Assembly: GCA_934591815.1 (NCBI GenBank)
Contig: CAKTPV010000008.1
Span: forward strand, 1-64,000
Direction of reading: 5' to 3'
DNA length: 64,000 nucleotides
Source of the DNA: an uncultured Oscillospiraceae bacterium
Lineage (GTDB): Bacteria > Bacillota > Clostridia > Oscillospirales > Oscillospiraceae
The notes below the pieces were generated by a model that was not told the DNA's origin, did no database searches, and saw only the letters and a list, made by a program, of their open reading frames with translations. This document shows positions 3,958-13,338 of the stretch, in pieces; the first letter of the stretch is position 1, and the number at the start of each line of letters is the position of its first letter. The position numbers and the translations under genes were made by a program.

Positions 3958-5355
3958 ATGGAACGACCCGAAAAGAAAAAATTCAAAGTCCTGCACCCAT
4001 ACGCGCTGATCATTGTCCTGATCATCTTCTGCACGGTACTGACCTATATCGTCCCTGCCGGTGTGTATGACCGCTACACCAATGACGCGGGCACAACGGT
4101 GGTTGACCCGGATTCCTTCCACTATGTGGACAAAACGCCTGTTTCCCCGGTGGCCATGGTCGAGGCGATCCCCACGGGCATGGGAGAGGTAGGCTGGATC
4201 ATTTTCCTGATCTTCATCATCGGCGGCTCCTTCGGCATCATCAACGCCACGGGGGCCATCGAGGCGGGACTCGGCGCGTCTATCGAAAAGATGCGGAATA
4301 AAACGGCGCTGCTGATCATCCTGCTCATGGCCATCTTCTCGCTGGGCGGCGCTACCTTCGCACTGGCGGAATCCACGCTGATCTTTATTCCCATCTGTGT
4401 GTTGCTGGCCAAGCGGCTGGGCTATGACTCCGTGGTGGGCATGGCCATCGTCAATGTCGGCGCTGTGTGCGGCTTCGCCGCTGGCTGGATGAATATGTAT
4501 ACGGTAGGTGTTGCCCAGGGCATCGCGGGGCTGCCGCTGTTCTCCGGCATGGGCTACCGCATCGTGACCCATGTGGTCGTGCTGCTCATCGCCATCCTCT
4601 ATGTCCTGCACTACGCCAAAAAGATCAAGGCGGATCCCATGCGGAGCGTCGTGTACGGCGTGGAGAGCGATGTGGACAAGGAGCTGTCGGAAAAGGGCAC
4701 GGAGCTGGTCTTCACCGGCAGACGCAAGGCCGTCCTCATCGTCGTGCTGGTCGGCTTTATCGCACTGGTGTACGGCATTACCCACGGCTGGAGCACCAGC
4801 AAGGAGATCTGCGCCCTGTTCCTGACCATGGGCGTTATCTGCGGCTATGTGGGCGGCCTGAAAACGGATGAGGTCGCCAACGCATTTGTCGAGGGCGCGA
4901 AGTCTGTCACCTACGGCGCGCTGCTGGTGGGCCTCTGCCGCGCGATGGTGGTCATCCTGACGCAGGGACAGATCATCGACACGATCCTGCACGCGCTGGC
5001 CTCCGGGCTGCAGGGCATTCCCGCCGTTTTCGCCGCAGGCCTGATGGTGATTGTCCAGACGTTCATCAACTTCTTCATCAACTCCGGCAGCGGACAGGCC
5101 GCCACGACGATGCCCATTATGGCGCCTCTGGCAGATATCCTCGGCGTCTCCCGCCAGACGGCAGTCCTGGCGTTCCAGTATGGCGACGGCCTTTCCAACT
5201 CCCTGTGGCCCACGTCCGGCGTCCTGATGGCGGGCCTGAGCATGGCCGGTATCCCGTTTGACAAGTGGTTCAAGTGGGTCTGGAAGCTCATGGTCATCAT
5301 GTACGCGGCGGTAACGCTTATGGTCATGCTGAGTGTCATTATTGGATACAATTGA
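3958..5355 (+). CDS. YfcC / DcuC-ArcD-like carboxylate or amino-acid carrier
   Basis: This 465-residue integral membrane protein has about 12 hydrophobic segments. An N-terminal positive stretch is followed by HPYALIIVLIIFCTVLTYIVPAG-like sequence, typical of the YfcC family. The later block around NSGSGQAATTMPIMAPLAD is characteristic of the C4-dicarboxylate/basic amino acid carrier superfamily. An AGGAG-like site precedes ATG 3958. It follows the M20 gene by 114 nt and ends at a terminator, completing the GntR-ald-M20-carrier module. It probably imports the amidohydrolase substrate or exchanges amino acids. Confidence 0.82.
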   Translation: MERPEKKKFKVLHPYALIIVLIIFCTVLTYIVPAGVYDRYTNDAGTTVVDPDSFHYVDKTPVSPVAMVEAIPTGMGEVGWIIFLIFIIGGSFGIINATGAIEAGLGASIEKMRNKTALLIILLMAIFSLGGATFALAESTLIFIPICVLLAKRLGYDSVVGMAIVNVGAVCGFAAGWMNMYTVGVAQGIAGLPLFSGMGYRIVTHVVVLLIAILYVLHYAKKIKADPMRSVVYGVESDVDKELSEKGTELVFTGRRKAVLIVVLVGFIALVYGITHGWSTSKEICALFLTMGVICGYVGGLKTDEVANAFVEGAKSVTYGALLVGLCRAMVVILTQGQIIDTILHALASGLQGIPAVFAAGLMVIVQTFINFFINSGSGQAATTMPIMAPLADILGVSRQTAVLAFQYGDGLSNSLWPTSGVLMAGLSMAGIPFDKWFKWVWKLMVIMYAAVTLMVMLSVIIGYN

Positions 5356-5422
5356 TTCGGATACCGGAAAAGCAAAACAAAAAAGCACGGATTCCTGAAC
5401 AATAAAGCCTGCGAGTATCCAC

Positions 5423-5459
5423 AAAAACCGTCTCAAACATGTCGTTTGAGACGGTTTTT
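5423..5459. terminator. Terminator closing the ald module
   Basis: 16-bp perfect stem (5423-5438 with 5444-5459), A-run before and T-run after. The outer ACCGTCTCAA sequence is shared with 260-295. Confidence 0.85.
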
Positions 5460-5510
5460 ATATGCGAAAAGTAAGGAGAGTTGAAACCTGATTTGACCAC
5501 TATTGCGCGT

Positions 5511-5630
5511 TTTGCGATCCAACTAAGCTATTACGCTATATCATATCTCCAGCATTCCCTGCAAGCCCGCGCTGGCGGCCTTTTTGTTCTTATCGAAGGC
5601 ATGGGTATAAATGTCGAGCGTGGTGGAGGG
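5511..5630. repeat. 120-bp direct repeat, copy 1 (att-like site plus int1 tail)
   Basis: It is repeated at 20071-20190; the first 89 bases differ at a single position, then divergence rises. On the minus strand, the part after the int1 stop reads TAGCTTAGTTGGATC, the D-arm pattern of a tRNA. This suggests the element sits at, or carries, a piece of a tRNA gene used as attachment site. Confidence 0.75.
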
Positions 5631-6713
5631 CTGGCTGTGGCCGAGGATGCCCGCCACCGTGGCCACATCCGTGCCGCCCGCGATCATCAGACTGGCGGCG
5701 GTGTGCCGGAGGGAATGGACGTTCAGCTCCTGCGGCAGGCCGTTCTTCTTGAGGATCAGCTTGAAGCGGTAGGTGAAGGTGGTGGGCGTCATGGGGAGCT
5801 GCGCTCCCTGACGGCGGAACAGGAAGTCATCAGTGGTCAGCTGCCGCTGGTCATAGGTTTCGGTGATGTATGCACATTCCTGCCGGTACTCCCGCAGGAG
5901 ACTTTCCATCTCGGCGGAGAAGTACACATAGCGGTCACCTGCGCGGGTCTTGGGTTCTTTGACGAAGATCTCCTCGTCCGTCACCTTGACCGCGTTGCGG
6001 CAGATGTGGATGGAACGCTGCTCCCAATCAATGTCGCACCACTTCAATCCGCAGCACTCGCCCCGCCGCATTCCCGTGGCGATGATGAGTTTGAAGTAGG
6101 TTTCGTACTTGATGCTCTCGCCCTCCAGCGCGGCGATGATCTTCTGCGCCGTTTCCTCGTCCGCGATCTTCTTTTCGCACTTGCGCCCGGCGTAGCGGTA
6201 GGTGCGCCACGCCGGATTATGCGAAAGAAAGCCACCCTCCACGGCATCAGAGAGGATGCTGCACAGCGTAGCGTGCACGCCCTCAATGGTGTACTCGGAG
6301 AGTGGCTTTTTTGTGTCGGGACGAATGACTTTTCGCAGTTCTGCGTAGAAATTCCGGAAGTGCTCCGGCCGCAGCTCGGTGAGCTTGTAGTGACCCAGCG
6401 CCGGGAGGATACGCTCGATGTCCTGCCGGTCGCGGCGGATGGTGGACTTTGCCAGCTTGCCGCGCGCGATGTCCGTCAGCCACAGGTCGATGTATTTTGC
6501 CAGCGTGAGCTGCTGGACGGGCTGCGGTGTGTGGCGGCATTCCCGCTCAAAGAGAACGGCCTGCTCATTGAGCCACTTTTCGACCTGCCTGGGCGTCAGC
6601 TCCTCCGGCGGGTGGACGGTTTTCTGCCGGGGGTTGATGCGCTTGCCGTTGTAGTCATAGCCCATGGAGACCACGATGAGATAGCTGCTGCCGCGCTTGC
6701 GGATGCTTGCCAT
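5541..6713 (-). CDS. Tyrosine recombinase / integrase 1
   Basis: This 390-residue site-specific recombinase has an N-terminal arm-binding region (MASIRKRGSSYLIVVS), a SAM-like core-binding domain and a C-terminal catalytic domain. Catalytic signatures are TGMRRGE (Arg), HSLRH (His-x-x-Arg), the later GHS and the YTHAF tyrosine. It cuts and joins att sites during integration and excision. Its stop lies beside the tRNA-like att relic, the usual place for the integrase that serves that site. AGAGGT precedes the ATG. A tail copy of about 90 bp recurs at 20101-20190. Confidence 0.92.
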   Translation of the reverse strand: MASIRKRGSSYLIVVSMGYDYNGKRINPRQKTVHPPEELTPRQVEKWLNEQAVLFERECRHTPQPVQQLTLAKYIDLWLTDIARGKLAKSTIRRDRQDIERILPALGHYKLTELRPEHFRNFYAELRKVIRPDTKKPLSEYTIEGVHATLCSILSDAVEGGFLSHNPAWRTYRYAGRKCEKKIADEETAQKIIAALEGESIKYETYFKLIIATGMRRGECCGLKWCDIDWEQRSIHICRNAVKVTDEEIFVKEPKTRAGDRYVYFSAEMESLLREYRQECAYITETYDQRQLTTDDFLFRRQGAQLPMTPTTFTYRFKLILKKNGLPQELNVHSLRHTAASLMIAGGTDVATVAGILGHSQPSTTLDIYTHAFDKNKKAASAGLQGMLEI

Positions 6714-6840
6714 AAAAATGACCTCTCTTTCATTTGACCTCGGTACAGTTGAGGCTTATTTTGCAAGCACAACATACCGCAAGCACGGCGGTAAAGCTAT
6801 CTGTAATTTTTGGAAAAATGAATTTCTACGAAAGCAACAA

Positions 6841-8049
6841 TCATGCGCTGCGCCGCTTCGGAGAACAGGCGGCGGCGAGATTGAAGATCTGCTCGCCGTC
6901 CGGGCGGAGCATGGTGAGCATGGAGTCTGCCGCCTGCTCCTTCTGCGCCTGCTGGGGGTGGCAGTAGGTGCGCTCCAGAAAGCCGGTGTCCGCATGACCC
7001 ACGAGGTCTGCCACCGTCTGCTTGTCCACGCCGCAGTGCAGCAGCGATGTCACGAAGTAGTGCCGCAGGGTGTGCAGGTGGTATTCCCGCGGAAAGCTGA
7101 TGGCGTCATAGATCTTCCGCAGCCGCTTGGTGAAGGTATCCGGGTGGATGAGCTGCCCCTGCTCGTCGGTGAAGAGGTAGGGACTTAGCTTGCGGCGCTG
7201 CTTGTCCGCCTCCATCTGCTTGCGGCGCTTGTAGGTGAGGAGGATGCCCCGCAGGTCAGAGGAGAGGTAGACTTCACGGCTCTTGCCGTTTTTGGTGGCG
7301 CCCTCCACGATGCCCTTGCCGGGAACGCTGCTGCGGGAGCGGCTGACGGTGAGCAGCAGACCGTTTTGCGTGCCGGTGAAGTCCGACCATTGCAGAGCGC
7401 ACAGCTCGCCCCGGCGGCAGCCGGTGTACATGGAGAGCAGATAGAATAGGCGGTAGTGCCGCGGCTCCTTCGCCAGCGCGTCCAGCAGCTTTTCCACCTC
7501 GCTTCGCGTGGGGATGCGCTGCACCGTGCGCTGCGGTGTGGGCAGGTCTAACATCCGCGCGGGATTCTTCTCGATGATCTCATTGCGCTTGGCGTCGCTG
7601 AGCACGGCGGAGACCACGGAGAGGTACCGCTGCGCGGTGGATTCGTTGATGAGCTTTCCGTGGTGCTTGCGCTTACGCAGCACGGAGAGCATATTTTCCA
7701 GTGCCATCGGCCGGAGCTTGTTGAGGCGGATGCCGCCGATCATGGGATACACCACCTCCAGCATCCGTTGGTATGCAGCGATGGTGCTGGGGGCATATTT
7801 CGTCTGCCGCTTCAGCCAGAGGGAGGCGAATTCCTCAAAGGTCATCTCGCCATCCTCGACGTAGCCGGTCTTGAAGCTGCGCTCCAGCTCCTCTGCGGCG
7901 TGGGCGACGAATTGGAAAATGCCGCGCTTGGGGACACCGGACGGGACTTGGATGGTCTTTGCCTTGCTGATCTTTTTGCCGTTGGGCCGGTAGCCATTGC
8001 TGACAGTGATCTTATACCGTCGTTCATCTAATTGCTTGATGCTTGCCAT
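6841..8049 (-). CDS. Tyrosine recombinase / integrase 2
   Basis: This 402-residue phage-integrase-family protein is distinct from integrase 1 but has the same domain order. It carries TGCRRGE, HTLRH, VGHAD and a terminal YCHP tyrosine. GGAGG lies inside the end of the relaxase gene and its start is only two bases after the relaxase stop, so it is translated with the mob genes. The gap to integrase 1 (127 nt) holds no gene. Two recombinases may act as a pair or one may control copy resolution. A 69-bp piece of this gene recurs at 20191-20259. Confidence 0.92.
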   Translation of the reverse strand: MASIKQLDERRYKITVSNGYRPNGKKISKAKTIQVPSGVPKRGIFQFVAHAAEELERSFKTGYVEDGEMTFEEFASLWLKRQTKYAPSTIAAYQRMLEVVYPMIGGIRLNKLRPMALENMLSVLRKRKHHGKLINESTAQRYLSVVSAVLSDAKRNEIIEKNPARMLDLPTPQRTVQRIPTRSEVEKLLDALAKEPRHYRLFYLLSMYTGCRRGELCALQWSDFTGTQNGLLLTVSRSRSSVPGKGIVEGATKNGKSREVYLSSDLRGILLTYKRRKQMEADKQRRKLSPYLFTDEQGQLIHPDTFTKRLRKIYDAISFPREYHLHTLRHYFVTSLLHCGVDKQTVADLVGHADTGFLERTYCHPQQAQKEQAADSMLTMLRPDGEQIFNLAAACSPKRRSA

Positions 8050-8051
8050 TT

Positions 8052-9506
8052 TTAGAGTCCTCCTATTGTTTGCTCGTGCTGATTTTCTTTCTGTTCTTCC
8101 CGCGCGGCGTGTTCATCCAATTTTTCTTTCACCGTCAGAGCCGCGCCTGCAGCGAAGCCGACCACAGCGCCGAAGTTTTCGGCGGCGATTTTCGCCTCCA
8201 TGCGCCGCCGCTTTTCCTCGGCGTCCTCATCCTCATCTATCAATGTCCCCACGGCAGTCAGTCCGGCCACGGCGGGGATCAGAGGAACAGGCCGCGGATC
8301 GCCGTCGCGCCATACCAACCCGCCAGTGCCGCCGTGCCAAGGATCAGCACCAGCATGATCCACTTGAACGCTACGAGCAGACTGAAATCCGGCAGCCACC
8401 GAATCCATTTGCAGGAATACCGCTCGCTCAGGTTCCCAACCCGTTCCAGCAGTTTGTTCATCTCTGTCAGCGATCTCTGCATCTCTGTCAGAGACTGCTG
8501 CACCGGCGTCAGGTCGATGTGTGTTCTCAGACTGGGAAGTGTTTTCCGAATCTCCTCCAACTCCCAATTCATTCCGTCTGCCTGCTCCGTCAATTTGTTC
8601 ATCGCCTGCGGCAGATCGCACTGGATCACAATGGGCTGGATCGGCTGCGGCGCAGCTGGCGGTGCGCTGTTTGGCTGATTCATTCGCTTCAATTCCTCCA
8701 TCGGCTTCCTCTGCTCGATGGAATTTTCTTTTAGCGAACTCTGCTCTGATTCTGAATTCATGCTCCATGGTCTCCTTGCAATACTTTTCCTCGTGCAGTT
8801 TGTTGTCGCGGCATCTCATGCCGTCCGGCGTGGTGTAGGTGATGTATTTGCGGCTGCTCTCCCAGCGGACGGCGTAGCCCTCGGACGCCATCAGCGAAAC
8901 GAAGGCGTCCTTGTCGGCGGCGTATTTCATGCACGCATCGATGGTGTTCATGAGCCGCAGCTTCCAGCTTTGGCCTTTCAGTGCCGTGTGGTATTCCGCG
9001 CCGCTCATGCCGCGGGCCTGCTGTGCGGTCGGCTCAAAGACCGGCAGACCCATCTCCAGACAGATCATGTCATTGCGCCGCATCAACTCTTGCAGTTGTT
9101 CCTTTGCCATGTGCAGCTTTTTGCCGGTGTCGAAATTGACGGAGTTGATGACGCAGTGGGAGTGGATGTGCTCCCGGTCTACGTGGGTACAGACCAGCAC
9201 CTCACAGCCGTCGAAGTATTCCGCCAGCCGCCGTGCGGCTTCGTGAGCCTGCCGTGGATCGACCGCCGCTCCCTTTGGAAAACTCTGCACCATGTGGTAG
9301 AACATCACCCCGCCGTCCTTGTGGTAGAGCAGCTTCGTGTTCAGAAAATCATCGTAGACGCTCTGCGGCTGGCAGTTGATGCCGCTGACGAGCGGCTCCC
9401 CCTCCCATGCGGTTTTCTTTTCCTGCATGACGTAGAGCATCACGCCGCGCATGGCGGCGCGGGATTGTGTGCCCCGCTTGTAGTTCACGAAATGTACGAT
9501 GGCCAT
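8052..9506 (-). CDS. Relaxase / mobilization nuclease (MobA/VirD2-like, MOBP type)
   Basis: This 484-residue protein would nick oriT and pilot the strand in conjugative mobilization. The N-terminal relaxase domain shows the metal-binding histidine motif HVDREHIHSHCVINS (His108, His113, His115, His117) and a candidate nucleophile Tyr25. The start at MAIVHF was chosen because it gives the standard relaxase N-terminus and lies 5 nt after the mobC stop; a longer open frame upstream is antisense or intergenic. Residues about 249-409 are overlapped in another frame by a second gene. The last ~75 residues (EKRRRMEAKIAAENFGAV region) again look like normal protein. Confidence 0.9.
   Translation of the reverse strand: MAIVHFVNYKRGTQSRAAMRGVMLYVMQEKKTAWEGEPLVSGINCQPQSVYDDFLNTKLLYHKDGGVMFYHMVQSFPKGAAVDPRQAHEAARRLAEYFDGCEVLVCTHVDREHIHSHCVINSVNFDTGKKLHMAKEQLQELMRRNDMICLEMGLPVFEPTAQQARGMSGAEYHTALKGQSWKLRLMNTIDACMKYAADKDAFVSLMASEGYAVRWESSRKYITYTTPDGMRCRDNKLHEEKYCKETMEHEFRIRAEFAKRKFHRAEEADGGIEANESAKQRTASCAAADPAHCDPVRSAAGDEQIDGAGRRNELGVGGDSENTSQSENTHRPDAGAAVSDRDAEIADRDEQTAGTGWEPERAVFLQMDSVAAGFQSARSVQVDHAGADPWHGGTGGLVWRDGDPRPVPLIPAVAGLTAVGTLIDEDEDAEEKRRRMEAKIAAENFGAVVGFAAGAALTVKEKLDEHAAREEQKENQHEQTIGGL
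8279..8761 (-). CDS. Nested mobilization-type protein (coiled coil plus C-terminal membrane segment)
   Basis: This 160-residue frame lies wholly inside the relaxase gene in a different frame. It has its own ribosome site (AAGGAG 10 nt before ATG). It encodes a polar N-terminus, a Pro/Gln-rich linker, a heptad-like helix (PVQQSLTEMQRSLTEMNKLL) and one hydrophobic segment (MLVLILGTAALAGWYGATAI) near the end. This layout recalls MobB/MbeB proteins of IncQ and ColE1 plasmids, which are also encoded inside mobA and help relaxosome or membrane docking. The family assignment is by architecture only. Confidence 0.7.
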   Translation of the reverse strand: MNSESEQSSLKENSIEQRKPMEELKRMNQPNSAPPAAPQPIQPIVIQCDLPQAMNKLTEQADGMNWELEEIRKTLPSLRTHIDLTPVQQSLTEMQRSLTEMNKLLERVGNLSERYSCKWIRWLPDFSLLVAFKWIMLVLILGTAALAGWYGATAIRGLFL

Positions 9507-9511
9507 ACGGC

Positions 9512-9817
9512 TCACCGCCCTTCCATGACTAATCGCAGAGCGGCGCTGACCTCGGACAGCTCCTGCGCAACTTTGTCGAGGCCGGTGACCTGCACCTTGC
9601 CCATGTTGGCGAGGACGGTGAGGCGGTTGACATTGCTGCCGATGCCCTTGAGCTGTCGGAGCAGCTCCTTCTGTTCGTCGATGACGATGATCCGCTTGCC
9701 GAGACAGCAGGCGGTGACATAGTCGCTCATGGACATGTGGGCCTTCGCCGCCAGCGTTCTGATCTTCTCGCGGTCGGTGGACGCCATGCGCGTGCTGAAT
9801 TTGATATCTTTTTTCAT
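9512..9817 (-). CDS. mobC: MobC-like relaxosome protein
   Basis: This 101-residue basic protein starts MKKDIKFSTRMASTDREKI, followed by a helix-turn-helix-like segment (MSMSDYVTACCLGKRI) and the MobC signature LKGIGSNVNRLTVLAN. MobC proteins bind oriT and help the relaxase open the DNA. GGAGA precedes ATG 9817. The stop is 5 nt before the relaxase start, the usual mobC-mobA order. Longer in-frame extensions upstream have non-protein-like composition and were rejected. Confidence 0.88.
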   Translation of the reverse strand: MKKDIKFSTRMASTDREKIRTLAAKAHMSMSDYVTACCLGKRIIVIDEQKELLRQLKGIGSNVNRLTVLANMGKVQVTGLDKVAQELSEVSAALRLVMEGR

Positions 9818-10055
9818 GTTTTTCTCCAATCGTAGCTTTAAGTGGGTCCGGGCTTCCGCCCGGAATTTGGGTGCAGGGCTTTGCCCGCTCGGTGCATTTG
9901 GCAGGGCAGCGGCTTCGCCGCAGACCAGACAAATGCGATGCTGGCCGTCGCCGCCACCTGAGTGGGCGACGATTCCCGCGTCCCGCGCCGTGTTCGGTAA
10001 ACAGCTCTCGGGTGGTACACACGCCACCCCAGCCCCTAACCGCGCACACAGCGGC
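9818..10055. other. Intergenic region upstream of mobC, candidate oriT
   Basis: No gene is seen here. The stretch contains several inverted repeats: CCGGGC/GCCCGG near 9847, GCGGC/GCCGC near 9908, and GGGTGG/CCACCC flanking TACACACG near 10012-10027. Origins of transfer of MOBP systems usually lie just before mobC and consist of such repeats beside the nick site. No known nic sequence was recognised, so the call is positional. Confidence 0.4.
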
Positions 10056-11123
10056 TCACACGCCGAAACACGGGGCGTTTTCACCGCCTGAGACAGCGGC
10101 AGGGTCGATAGGGTCAACAGCTTGGGTACCCTGTGCATCGTCACTTTCGGCACGGCGCAGCTCGATGAGCCGCTTGCCGTTGCTGCGGCGCACCACGGCG
10201 GAAATACCGATTTTACTTAGTGCGGCAACGCTTTGCAGGATCAGACGAGACACCTTTTTCGGTGTGACGCCCTCGCTGCCCGCAGGGTCGATCTGCGCGG
10301 ACAGCTCCGTGGGAGTGCCGATAAATTCCGTGCGGTCACGCATCAGTTCAGAGAGAAGAATGACGATCCGGCCGCCCAGCAGCTCCGGCTGTGTCCGGCT
10401 GTCCGACACCAACTCCCACACATTTTCCGCGTTGCGTTCCAGCGTCAGCTCCCGGTACTCGATGTCGCGCCCGATGCAGGAGAGCGTTGCCTTGCCGCTG
10501 CCGCGCTTGTCCTCAATGAGCGTGAAGCTGGAATCCACCGCGCCGCTGATGGCCGTCGTGCCGGAGATGCGGCTGAACACATCGTCGGCAAGCTCCTTCC
10601 GCAGATGGTGGATCAGCAGAATGGCGATGCCGTGGGCATCCGCGATGTGCTTCAGCACGGAGAGGTCACGGTAGTCATTGGCGTAAGTGTTGTCATAACC
10701 GGCGCCGCGGATCATTTGCAGTGTGTCAATGATAATTAGCACCGTGTCGGGGTGCTCAGAGAGGAACGCACAGAGCTGTTCCTCCAGACCCTTGCCAAGG
10801 GTGTCGCTGTTGGTGGTGAAGTGGACGCTGGCGGGAGCGTCCTCCGTGATCTCGAACAGGCGGTTCTGGATGCGGAGGGTGGAATCCTCCAGGCAGAGGT
10901 AGAGCGTAGTGCCCTGCTTCACGCCCATGCCCCAGACGGGATCACCCTTCGCCACCGTGACGGACAACCACAGAGCCAGCCAAGACTTTCCCACCTTGGG
11001 AGAGCCCGCGAGGATGTGCAGACCTTGAGAGAGCAGCGTATCCACCACGAAGTTCAGCGGTGTGAGCGGCTGACTCATCAGCGTTTCTCCGTCGATGGTC
11101 AGCAATCGGTTTTCTTTTTTCAA
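10056..11123 (-). CDS. RepA-like AAA ATPase / replicative helicase
   Basis: This 355-residue RecA-fold ATPase has Walker A GSPKVGKSW (about residues 39-47), Walker B VLIIIDTLQM and the sensor segment ILLIHHLRK. These match RepA/DnaB-type hexameric helicases of plasmids and integrative elements. The C-terminal third is a likely winged-helix region. It probably unwinds the excised circle for replication. It starts at TTG 11123, chosen because GGAGG lies 8 nt upstream and no ATG fits. It is divergent from the DUF6076 gene. Confidence 0.85.
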   Translation of the reverse strand: MKKENRLLTIDGETLMSQPLTPLNFVVDTLLSQGLHILAGSPKVGKSWLALWLSVTVAKGDPVWGMGVKQGTTLYLCLEDSTLRIQNRLFEITEDAPASVHFTTNSDTLGKGLEEQLCAFLSEHPDTVLIIIDTLQMIRGAGYDNTYANDYRDLSVLKHIADAHGIAILLIHHLRKELADDVFSRISGTTAISGAVDSSFTLIEDKRGSGKATLSCIGRDIEYRELTLERNAENVWELVSDSRTQPELLGGRIVILLSELMRDRTEFIGTPTELSAQIDPAGSEGVTPKKVSRLILQSVAALSKIGISAVVRRSNGKRLIELRRAESDDAQGTQAVDPIDPAAVSGGENAPCFGV

Positions 11124-11191
11124 TTTTTGTTCCTCCGGATAAAAGGATAAGGGCAGAGACCTCGCTGCAGTCGAGGCTCTAACCCTTTCAC

Positions 11192-11219
11192 TTGATTATT
11201 CTGTATTTTTTGGTAGAAT
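11192..11219 (+). promoter_or_regulatory. Promoter of the DUF6076 / sigma-factor pair
   Basis: TTGATT (11192-11197), a 16-nt spacer and TAGAAT (11214-11219). The same block is kept in the scarred element copy at 20262-20289, although the gene behind it is different there. Confidence 0.6.
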
Positions 11220-11270
11220 GAGAATATCACAGGACAGTTACAAAACAGATATGGGACAGGGGGCGATGCT

Positions 11271-12380
11271 ATGCCGCTGGGAATACAGCAGAACAACGAT
11301 TTCACGCAGTTCACAATGGATGTCTGGAATGACAAGATCTTTTATCAGGAGAAGGAGTTTCCGGCGGGATTCATGGCGATGTCCATTCTGAACATTCCCG
11401 AAGAAAAACTGCCGGAGCTGATACAGGCCGGCGGCGCACCAACCTTCCTGTTCCCTGTGGTGGTACAGGGCAGCGATGAGGAGGCTGCGGCGGTATTCCC
11501 GCAGCTGCGGGAACGGATATTGTATCTGACTGAACTGCTTTGGAAGTATCCGCCCTTTTGCTACAATGACTATGAGAAGGAAATGCGCCGGATCAATATC
11601 CTGTTTGACGAAAGAAACCTCCTGCAAATACGGACGCCCGATTCGGAGTTCCAGACGGAGTTCCTGAGATTCTGCGTCGGGATCATACGCATCCCTATCG
11701 CTATGTATCACTTCTATGCAGCGGGGCGGTTCTTTGAACTGGATTATCTGCGGCGTCTGAAAAAACGGAACGAAACACATTTTGCCGTGGCCGCGCATGA
11801 CTGCTTCAACAGCGAGCAGTTTTGGGATGAGATGCGGAGTTTACAGAGCTTGGATATGGAGCCGTTCACGGTCTACCCGGAGCTGTCCTCCACCTATGTG
11901 TTTGCCCGCAGTCCGAAAAACGAAAAAGAAATGGTGTTTGTAGAACGGGTGATTTTTCCGCGCCTGACCGATTTCTACACCTATGACCTGATGAACGGAT
12001 TGCACCACGGCCACGCGCCCAGCCAGTGCCAAGGCTGCGGAAGATACTTTCTGACCACCAACGGCCACATCCCAAAGTACTGTGACGGCGTCGCCCCGCA
12101 GGACAATCGCTATACCTGCCGGCAGTACGGCGCGATGATGCACCAGAAGGAGCAGAACAAACAGCACCCGGTCTACCGCCTGTTCAATACCCGAACCGGG
12201 ACGATCCGCAAGCATCACCAGCGAGGGAAGATCTCCGATGACCTGCGGCGGGAGGCACTGTATCTGGCGGGGAGCTACCGGGACAAGGCACTGATGGACA
12301 ACGACTATGCCGCTGACGGATATGCGCGGGACATGGAATTGGAACACATTTACGCGGAGGCAGAAAAGCGGCTGAAATGA
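11271..12380 (+). CDS. DUF6076-type protein with C-terminal zinc-binding cluster
   Basis: This 369-residue protein is found typically in Clostridia integrative elements next to sigma-like genes. The N-terminal two thirds is a mixed alpha/beta region without known motifs. Residues about 255-300 contain CQGCGRYFLTTNG, HIPKYC and later YTCRQYGA, a treble-clef-like Cys cluster that may bind zinc and nucleic acid. AGGGGG precedes ATG 11271; the sigma-like gene follows after 16 nt, suggesting an operon. Function is not known. The family name is from memory of similar sequences. Confidence 0.7.
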   Translation: MPLGIQQNNDFTQFTMDVWNDKIFYQEKEFPAGFMAMSILNIPEEKLPELIQAGGAPTFLFPVVVQGSDEEAAAVFPQLRERILYLTELLWKYPPFCYNDYEKEMRRINILFDERNLLQIRTPDSEFQTEFLRFCVGIIRIPIAMYHFYAAGRFFELDYLRRLKKRNETHFAVAAHDCFNSEQFWDEMRSLQSLDMEPFTVYPELSSTYVFARSPKNEKEMVFVERVIFPRLTDFYTYDLMNGLHHGHAPSQCQGCGRYFLTTNGHIPKYCDGVAPQDNRYTCRQYGAMMHQKEQNKQHPVYRLFNTRTGTIRKHHQRGKISDDLRREALYLAGSYRDKALMDNDYAADGYARDMELEHIYAEAEKRLK

Positions 12381-12396
12381 GGAAGGGGGCGTTCCT

Positions 12397-13338
12397 GTGA
12401 CGAAAAATATGTACACCGTTGCCGGGGACGCCCCCTGCAATGAAGAGCTGGCTTTGCGGATACAAGCCGGAGACAAAAACGCCGCGGAGCGGCTCCTCTC
12501 ACAGAACGAGGGCTACCTCACCAAGCTGGCGCGGGCGTACACACCGTGGTGTGAGCTGGAGGATTTGAAGCAGGAGGCGGCGTTGGCGCTGCTGGACGCG
12601 GCGAGGCGCTTTGATCCCGCCTTCGGAACGAAGCTGCTGACCTATGCGACGCCCGCGATAGAAGCGGCGCTGTCCGACTATGCCGCGCGGTATTCTTCCT
12701 CTCTGCCCATTCCCATCAGCCGGTACAATCAACTGCGCAGAGTGGCATACCTCTGCGCCGAGGCACAGGATACCTCCGAGTCGGAATTGACCAAGGCGGT
12801 GTGCGAAAAGCTGAAGGTATCCTCCAAGGCAGCTGAGACACTGTTGAAGGAATACCAGACGCTGTGCTGCACACGGCAGTTGGGAGATGATGTGTTCTCC
12901 ATCAGCTGCGGCGGCGATCCCGCCGTGGCCTATGACCGCCTCATGCGCCGGACGCTTCTGATGCAGCGAATGGAGGAGGTGCTGACGCCCAGAGAGCTGA
13001 ATCTGGTGCGAAGCTACCTTGGCATCGGTCAGCCGGACGAGGTCGGCATGACCTTTCAGGAGCTGGCGATCCGCCTCAACTACAACGGCTCCAGCGGAGC
13101 GGAGAAGGCGTACAAGGCCGCGCTGCGGAAGCTGAAAAGGGACTTATACGGCGGGGCCTACGGTCGGTGGCTCTCTGCACAGAAAGCCATCCGTGCCGCC
13201 AAAGCGGAAGCAGAGCAGACCACGGGACAGCACACAACGCCGCAGAGAACATGGTGGGAGGAGCAAGCACTGGCGAATCGGTTTGCCTGCGAGGTCGCAG
13301 CACTGATCCGTGTTTACGAGGTGCTCAGAGGAGCTTGA
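12397..13338 (+). CDS. Sigma-70-like factor carried by the mobile element
   Basis: This 313-residue protein has a sigma region 2-like segment (LEDLKQEAALALLDAARRF, then LLTYATPAIEAAL) and a region 4-like helix-turn-helix (LTPRELNLVRSYLG...MTFQELAIRLNY). A basic C-terminal extension (AQKAIRAAKAEAEQ, then RTWWEEQALANRF) follows. It starts at GTG 12397 behind GGAAGGGGG. It may direct polymerase to element genes or act as a DNA-binding partner. Its last ~58 codons recur as a fragment at 21039-21212. Confidence 0.78.
   Translation: MTKNMYTVAGDAPCNEELALRIQAGDKNAAERLLSQNEGYLTKLARAYTPWCELEDLKQEAALALLDAARRFDPAFGTKLLTYATPAIEAALSDYAARYSSSLPIPISRYNQLRRVAYLCAEAQDTSESELTKAVCEKLKVSSKAAETLLKEYQTLCCTRQLGDDVFSISCGGDPAVAYDRLMRRTLLMQRMEEVLTPRELNLVRSYLGIGQPDEVGMTFQELAIRLNYNGSSGAEKAYKAALRKLKRDLYGGAYGRWLSAQKAIRAAKAEAEQTTGQHTTPQRTWWEEQALANRFACEVAALIRVYEVLRGA

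Follow-up and report, generated by a model that had tools for sequence, protein, structure and literature searches.

A probable gene nested in the +1 frame of a relaxase gene in Clostridia

The relaxase locus and its nested reading frame

The window, i.e., the whole stretch of 64,000 nucleotides that was analyzed, carries on its minus strand a relaxase gene (8052..9506) that forms the outer frame of the locus, encodes 484 amino acids starting with MAIVHF and begins at an ATG at position 9506 (MAIVHFVNYKRG). The frame is open throughout and the product matches PF03432 with E 2.3e-33 (115.7 bits, curated cut-off 24.6). All neighboring genes that were read lie on the minus strand as well. A MobC/NikA-like relaxosome protein is encoded at 9512..9790 (PF21983, E 1.1e-15; PF05713, E 3.3e-9) and an AAA_25 ATPase of the element at 10056..11123 (PF13481, E 1.7e-27). 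Directly downstream of the relaxase gene lies a tyrosine recombinase gene (6841..8049; PF00589, E 7.4e-23), followed by a second one (5541..6713; PF00589, E 2.1e-30), so that a tandem pair of tyrosine recombinase genes at 5541-8049 adjoins the relaxase gene. As no secretion-system gene is present among these five genes at 5.5-11.1 kb, the element looks mobilizable rather than conjugative. The ends of the element were not found, the regions 4801-5600 and 10051-12600 sharing only repeats of 11 and 10 bases.

Wholly within the open relaxase frame, and +1 relative to it, lies a second ATG-initiated reading frame of 160 codons (8279..8761, minus strand), which encodes a mobB-like candidate protein and spans relaxase residues 249-409, in agreement with the relaxase ATG at 9506. 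It is preceded by an AAGGAG ribosome-binding site (8772..8777, minus strand) that is located inside relaxase codons for Lys-Glu, with a spacing of ten bases between its last base and the nested ATG at 8761. The most hydrophobic 19-residue window of the nested protein comprises residues 128-146 (8324..8380, minus strand; Kyte-Doolittle 2.34) and is predicted to be a C-terminal transmembrane segment. The preliminary description of this DNA had reported the nested frame with its own AAGGAG, its span and the terminal membrane segment, and these were recovered, the last of them as a prediction. It had also reported a heptad-patterned helix; the AlphaFold2 model is indeed helical, with the terminal helix being best supported, but it is poor (mean pLDDT 59.8, pTM 0.20), so that the heptad-patterned helix stands as a prediction.

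In its relatives the nested protein begins with a conserved stretch (consensus MNSxSExxLSMEELKxxNxP), which is followed by a predicted helical middle part and the C-terminal hydrophobic segment. Over the 55 loci of the comparative set described below, the best hydrophobic window reaches at least 1.6 in 50, the lowest value being 1.48. In all 55, Lys/Arg are more abundant in the 25 residues preceding the segment than in the shorter stretch following it, a distribution that suggests that the N terminus is cytoplasmic.

Relatives of the locus and conservation of the nested frame

For the nested protein, 4863 of 4933 candidates in the protein database matched at E 0.001; for the relaxase there were at least 8000 candidates. 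Scanning genome contigs with the relaxase gave 13 loci, with identities from 82% down to 37%, and a +1 ORF was seen at the corresponding place in all 13 (judged by eye, some being near-copies). Among 300 genomes of the family of the Flavonifractor locus, 91 contained a relaxase match at E 1e-20, and 80 regions were retrieved among the places listed from this search. The comparative set comprises 94 loci including the window, 65 closer ones and 29 that are too distant for counts in the overlap; in none of these 29 do the place, the start and the anchor of the nested gene occur together.

An analyzable intact +1 nested ORF at the homologous place is found in 55 of the 65 closer loci, window included. 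Left out of these counts were L045 with a frameshift in both frames, L082 with a stop in the nested frame, L064 and L088 with a relaxase frame broken in the assembly, L013 and L094 with a partial relaxase match in the presence of the nested ORF, and L089, L090, L091 and L093 that have no nested gene. The 55 loci include identical or near-identical copies, 15 of which were removed for the analysis of conserved islands (40 left) and kept in the first tree.

A start codon is present at the conserved site in 52 of the 55 loci (37 ATG, 13 GTG, 2 TTG), and L004, L079 and L085 have no standard start codon there. AAGGAG is located exactly at -16 to -11 in 48 of 55. Where the relaxase has Lys-Glu at this place, the pair is encoded by AAGGAG in 57 of 61 overlapping loci, compared to 27 of 68 Lys-Glu pairs at other positions of these relaxases and one of seven loci that have Lys-Glu at the place and lack the nested gene. 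As this codon choice is dispensable for the relaxase protein, it points to selection on the start signal.

Across the phylum, 24 of 398 genomes matched the relaxase at E 1e-30. Of 35 places listed from this search 13 were retrieved, and the nested gene is present in four of them (L127-L130; L128 is probably the same contig as L007) and absent in nine. In the Chakrabartyella family, seven of 58 genomes matched at E 1e-55, and of seven further places one has the nested gene with an unread run inside (L140), four lack it (L141-L144) and two carry a partly overlapping gene (L145, L146). No relative of the nested protein was found in the viral contigs, plasmids or phages searched, none of the relaxase alignment in the viral contigs and none of the region's DNA in the plasmids. 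Literature matches listed, mostly papers available without subscription, contained no description of a nested relaxase gene in Clostridia. The relaxases of L134 and L136 are about 1000 residues long with repeats after the nuclease part that may be of the Sel1/TPR type.

Selection on the two reading frames

When the relaxase codons of the window were shuffled among synonyms, the nested frame stayed open in 26.5% of 1000 shuffles, and distant relaxases without the nested gene also hold long +1 open frames, e.g., 209 codons in L104. Openness of the nested frame alone is therefore weak evidence, and the case against chance comes from the relatives. The reciprocal test is strong: when the nested codons of the window were shuffled, none of 1000 shuffles kept the relaxase frame open, 4.8 stops being expected.

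Over the 55 loci, shuffling the nested codons among synonyms predicts 197.7 stops of the relaxase frame in the overlap and none is observed, while the third frame contains 513 stops with 530.2 expected. Shuffling the relaxase codons predicts 82.5 stops in the nested frame and again none is observed, the nested frames here having been chosen as open. These counts, from which L045 was excluded beforehand, are to be read as totals with no probability attached, because the loci are related and the set was picked for open frames.

The substitution pattern changes at the overlap. In the six closest pairs, change at relaxase codon positions 1, 2 and 3 amounts to 0.024/0.022/0.110 before the overlap and to 0.070/0.037/0.023 inside it, i.e., the peak moves from relaxase position 3 to relaxase position 1, which is position 3 of the nested frame. 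At kappa 1, the lower end of the range used, omega (with bootstrap bounds) over twelve disjoint close pairs was 0.23 (0.16-0.32) in the nested frame versus 0.49 (0.33-0.69) in the relaxase frame. At kappa 4, the upper end, the values rose to 0.36 (0.24-0.50) and 0.71 (0.48-0.99), respectively, so that the upper bound for the relaxase frame reaches 0.99. Changes silent in the nested frame that would introduce a stop into the relaxase were observed 0.5 times with 12-13 expected. The preliminary description had proposed looking for purifying selection in both frames, and omega below 1 in each agrees with it; the nested frame is the more constrained of the two readings. The nested ORF is thus very probably a real gene.

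The relaxase reading of the overlap

The relaxase frame shows local conservation inside the overlap. The motif TGWEPER (8424..8444, minus strand) is encoded by bases that also encode part of the nested ERVGNLSE; its GWE is present in 55 of 55 loci, and the motif is more conserved than under a null in which the nested protein is maintained. With this null, three islands stand out in the 40 loci: the start of the overlap (EFRIR-like), the TGWExER stretch and a late LG..LE stretch. Among the most divergent pairs (508) the excess over the null is 0.61 BLOSUM units for the relaxase frame and 0.23 for the third frame, where it reflects common ancestry. Among the closest pairs (47) the two values lie nearer to each other, at 1.73 for the relaxase versus 1.45 for the third frame.

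Where the nested gene is present, GWE lies 67-200 residues (median 97) downstream of the nested start, which is located near residue 249. In loci lacking the gene the GW motif is already found at relaxase residues 266-281 (seven measured; L144 is partial and was excluded). The nested gene is probably the reason for the long linker, which the relaxase can do without. Past the end of the nested gene the relaxase continues with a C-terminal tail (8055..8278, minus strand) that is conserved in 20 close relatives. Another kind of tail is also present in relaxases without the nested gene. Nested-gene loci themselves show two kinds of tails, a hydrophobic Ala/Gly-rich one in the window and L005-L010 and one with a KKIAxGHKxDDHE-like motif in L002-L004 and L011-L013.

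The poor conservation of a large part of the relaxase frame over the overlap, together with the much shorter linker in relatives without the nested gene, would fit a situation in which the nested gene is the sole functional reading and the relaxase frame is kept open merely to reach the tail. This is rather unlikely given GWE in all 55 loci, the EFRIR-like start and the other islands above a null that keeps the nested protein, and a relaxase omega below 1, if narrowly so at kappa 4. Together, the islands and the omega values indicate that part of the overlap probably carries a relaxase function.

Exceptions, relatives without the nested gene and phylogeny

The preliminary description had named stops in close relatives as evidence against the nested gene. 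Such a stop beside an intact relaxase was found in L082 alone, and in L045 one frameshift disrupts both frames. The nested gene is absent in eight sampled relatives that form two groups, L090, L091 and L143 on the one hand and L089, L093, L141, L142 and L144 on the other, so that not all relaxases of this family depend on it. Both groups have a short linker and they differ in the kind of relaxase tail. In both trees they fall inside the nested set (L144 is not part of the second tree, from which listed near-duplicates and distant rows were removed by hand). Three changes were counted on the first tree, which can be explained by a single gain and two losses. Support for the base of the whole set is moderate in this tree (82/90), and the second tree does not resolve it; a single origin of the nested gene is therefore tentatively favored.

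Comparison with known nested layouts

The layout resembles that of plasmid RSF1010 (IncQ), a twin of R1162, in which mobB encodes a small protein with a C-terminal hydrophobic segment and lies +1 in a relaxase gene that continues past it. The hydrophobic window of RSF1010 MobB has a Kyte-Doolittle value of 2.38 at residue 99 of 137, and for the 55 loci the median value of the segment is 2.31 with a median of 14 residues after it. In contrast to the relaxase described here, that of RSF1010 belongs to MOBQ, and the five plasmid records listed are all of Gram-negative bacteria. A passage on RSF1010 describes that mobB and repB overlap mobA (PMC5572225), the title of Parker and Meyer (2007) states that the transport signals of the R1162 relaxase require MobB, and overlapping mobA, mobB and mobC ORFs are mentioned for Paracoccus plasmids (PMC3832669).

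In ColE1, mbeB and mbeD are likewise located +1 inside the MOBP-type relaxase gene mbeA, the host relaxase here being a PF03432 protein; the differences are that ColE1 has two nested genes instead of one and that the hydrophobic segment of MbeB lies mid-protein. The mob region of staphylococcal pC221 resembles the locus in having MobC, then the relaxase, with a membrane protein ORF nearby, but this ORF follows the relaxase in the record as written (a start across the record join excepted).

No kinship of the nested protein to RSF1010 MobB, ColE1 MbeB or pC221 MobB was found. A hhalign comparison of the single RSF1010 MobB sequence with the 39-row profile of the nested protein gave a probability of 5.4%, and the values for ColE1 MbeB, the ColE1 protein covered by the profile comparison, and pC221 MobB were 0.5% and 0.4%. 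The search against profile databases that had been proposed earlier gave no fitting family in Pfam or NCBIfam: matches were weak and scattered, with at most three of 39 members per family (DUF2730), the NCBIfam models for the secretion or conjugation proteins DotA/TraY, IcmG/DotF and TraP each matched one member weakly, and no MbeB or MbeD model occurred among the matches at E 0.01.

The parallel to RSF1010 mobB and ColE1 mbeB/mbeD drawn in the preliminary description holds for the arrangement, which is nested and in the same +1 phase in all of them. Of its two proposals, a parallel or an ancient version of that layout, the low profile probabilities fit the parallel one better and speak against an ancient relative of MobB, though the nested gene is old within its own relaxase family. 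The nested protein thus appears as a new family within a known layout.

Proposed function of the nested protein

From its position and anatomy, the nested gene can be assigned a putative mob function. With moderate confidence, we favor a real gene with its own start whose product is a membrane-anchored, MobB-like accessory protein that helps to deliver the relaxosome to a helper channel, the relaxase reading the shared bases as a tolerant linker. On this view, translation would initiate at the nested start within the relaxase mRNA and yield a small protein that is helical on the cytoplasmic side and anchored in the membrane by its C-terminal part. Like RSF1010 MobB, the anchored protein would bind the relaxase or the relaxosome and help to pass the relaxosome on to the coupling protein that a helper conjugative element provides. 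In the relaxase, the overlap would form a long linker from the nuclease domain to the conserved GWE motif and the tail. The coupler role is assigned by analogy with RSF1010 MobB, which has the same order of anatomical parts and the same +1 nesting; expression of the nested protein, relaxase binding and a part in transfer are what we infer.

The main functional rival to the coupler role is exclusion, in which a real nested gene encodes a membrane protein for entry or surface exclusion that prevents another copy of the element from entering. Being small, helical and membrane-bound would suit either role, and one of the nested +1 genes of ColE1 is named MbeD family mobilization/exclusion protein in its record. 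The C-terminal anchor, however, resembles that of MobB, and wherever the gene was found it resides inside a relaxase gene, as would rather be expected of a partner of the relaxase. No exclusion family occurs among the Pfam and NCBIfam matches of the 39 members at E 0.01. These points speak weakly against exclusion, which is given a low probability.

Translation mainly as a relaxase fusion by +1 frameshifting, with the separate start being secondary, would accord with the +1 phase in every case, with the three of 55 loci without a standard start codon at the conserved site and with a +1 frame that is open tens of codons before the start in some loci (18 in the window). This is very improbable, since five codons upstream of the start the +1 frame is already closed in other loci, e.g., L003, L047 and L050, which leaves little room to slip, and AAGGAG and its spacing are conserved beyond the need of the amino acids.

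A non-coding ORF that results from the codon composition of the relaxase would accord with the open shuffles of the window and the long +1 frames of distant relaxases, but this reading is hardly credible, being contradicted by comparative data, namely the substitution pattern, the nested-frame omega, the synonymously conserved ribosome-binding site and the recurrence of place, start and C-terminal hydrophobic segment, the full set of which is seen in 0 of 29 distant loci; a chance ORF was ruled out by the same kinds of evidence.

Partly overlapping +1 genes in Clostridia

In L145 and L146 the relaxase frame ends earlier, and a +1 gene whose start has the geometry of the nested one continues beyond this stop. 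The same partial overlap is seen on plasmid pCD-METRO (L147) and on a Waltera plasmid. L145-L148 form a well-supported branch in the second tree (100/100), and their relaxases end with, e.g., GWELER in L146 and NWEPER in L148. Searching 299 genomes of the phylum with the L146 relaxase at E 1e-40 yielded no further partial overlap and only two relaxases of the nested type.

As with the nested gene, the partly overlapping genes have AAGGAG, ten bases and then ATG or GTG inside a related relaxase gene, and they encode a coiled-coil-like part followed by membrane segments. They differ in that the relaxase stops early and the gene extends beyond it, in four loci. The partly overlapping gene of pCD-METRO belongs to DUF6040 (PF19506, E 3.3e-50), a family with no match among 39 nested proteins at E 0.01 and for which the literature search gave no paper. 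As no sequence kinship was found between the L146 protein and the nested protein, homology rests on position and start geometry only. The partial overlaps may preserve the state before full enclosure or may be shortened relaxases.

Tentatively, and with somewhat less than even probability, the nested proteins can be viewed as an undescribed family of membrane-anchored relaxosome couplers that are encoded wholly inside relaxase genes of mobilizable elements of Oscillospirales and Lachnospirales, that originated at a start site in common with the partly overlapping mobB-like genes of Clostridia plasmids, that became enclosed as the relaxase reading continued and that were lost at least two times. 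If this is true, RSF1010, ColE1 and the nested family would constitute three convergent solutions, all in +1. The locus adds a Gram-positive case to the RSF1010/ColE1 layout, again in +1 and again with a membrane protein of no detectable kinship, which makes it testable why relaxase genes repeatedly host a +1 membrane partner. Dual coding in the relaxase gene has been held over large divergence, with thousands of homologues in the database, and the relatives are numerous enough for testing each frame separately.

The pCD-METRO gene also indicates an annotation gap. Its DUF6040 gene (1625-2695) is annotated from 1994, yet the frame is open from 1625 and AAGGAG occurs at 1666, ten bases before an in-frame GTG that lies within the relaxase gene. 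The signal points to a start about 300 bases upstream of the annotated one, which has probably been placed too late. Residues 128-296 of the L146 relaxase query are 99.4% identical to stretches in plasmids of Campylobacter jejuni and C. coli, which suggests a recent transfer between phyla.
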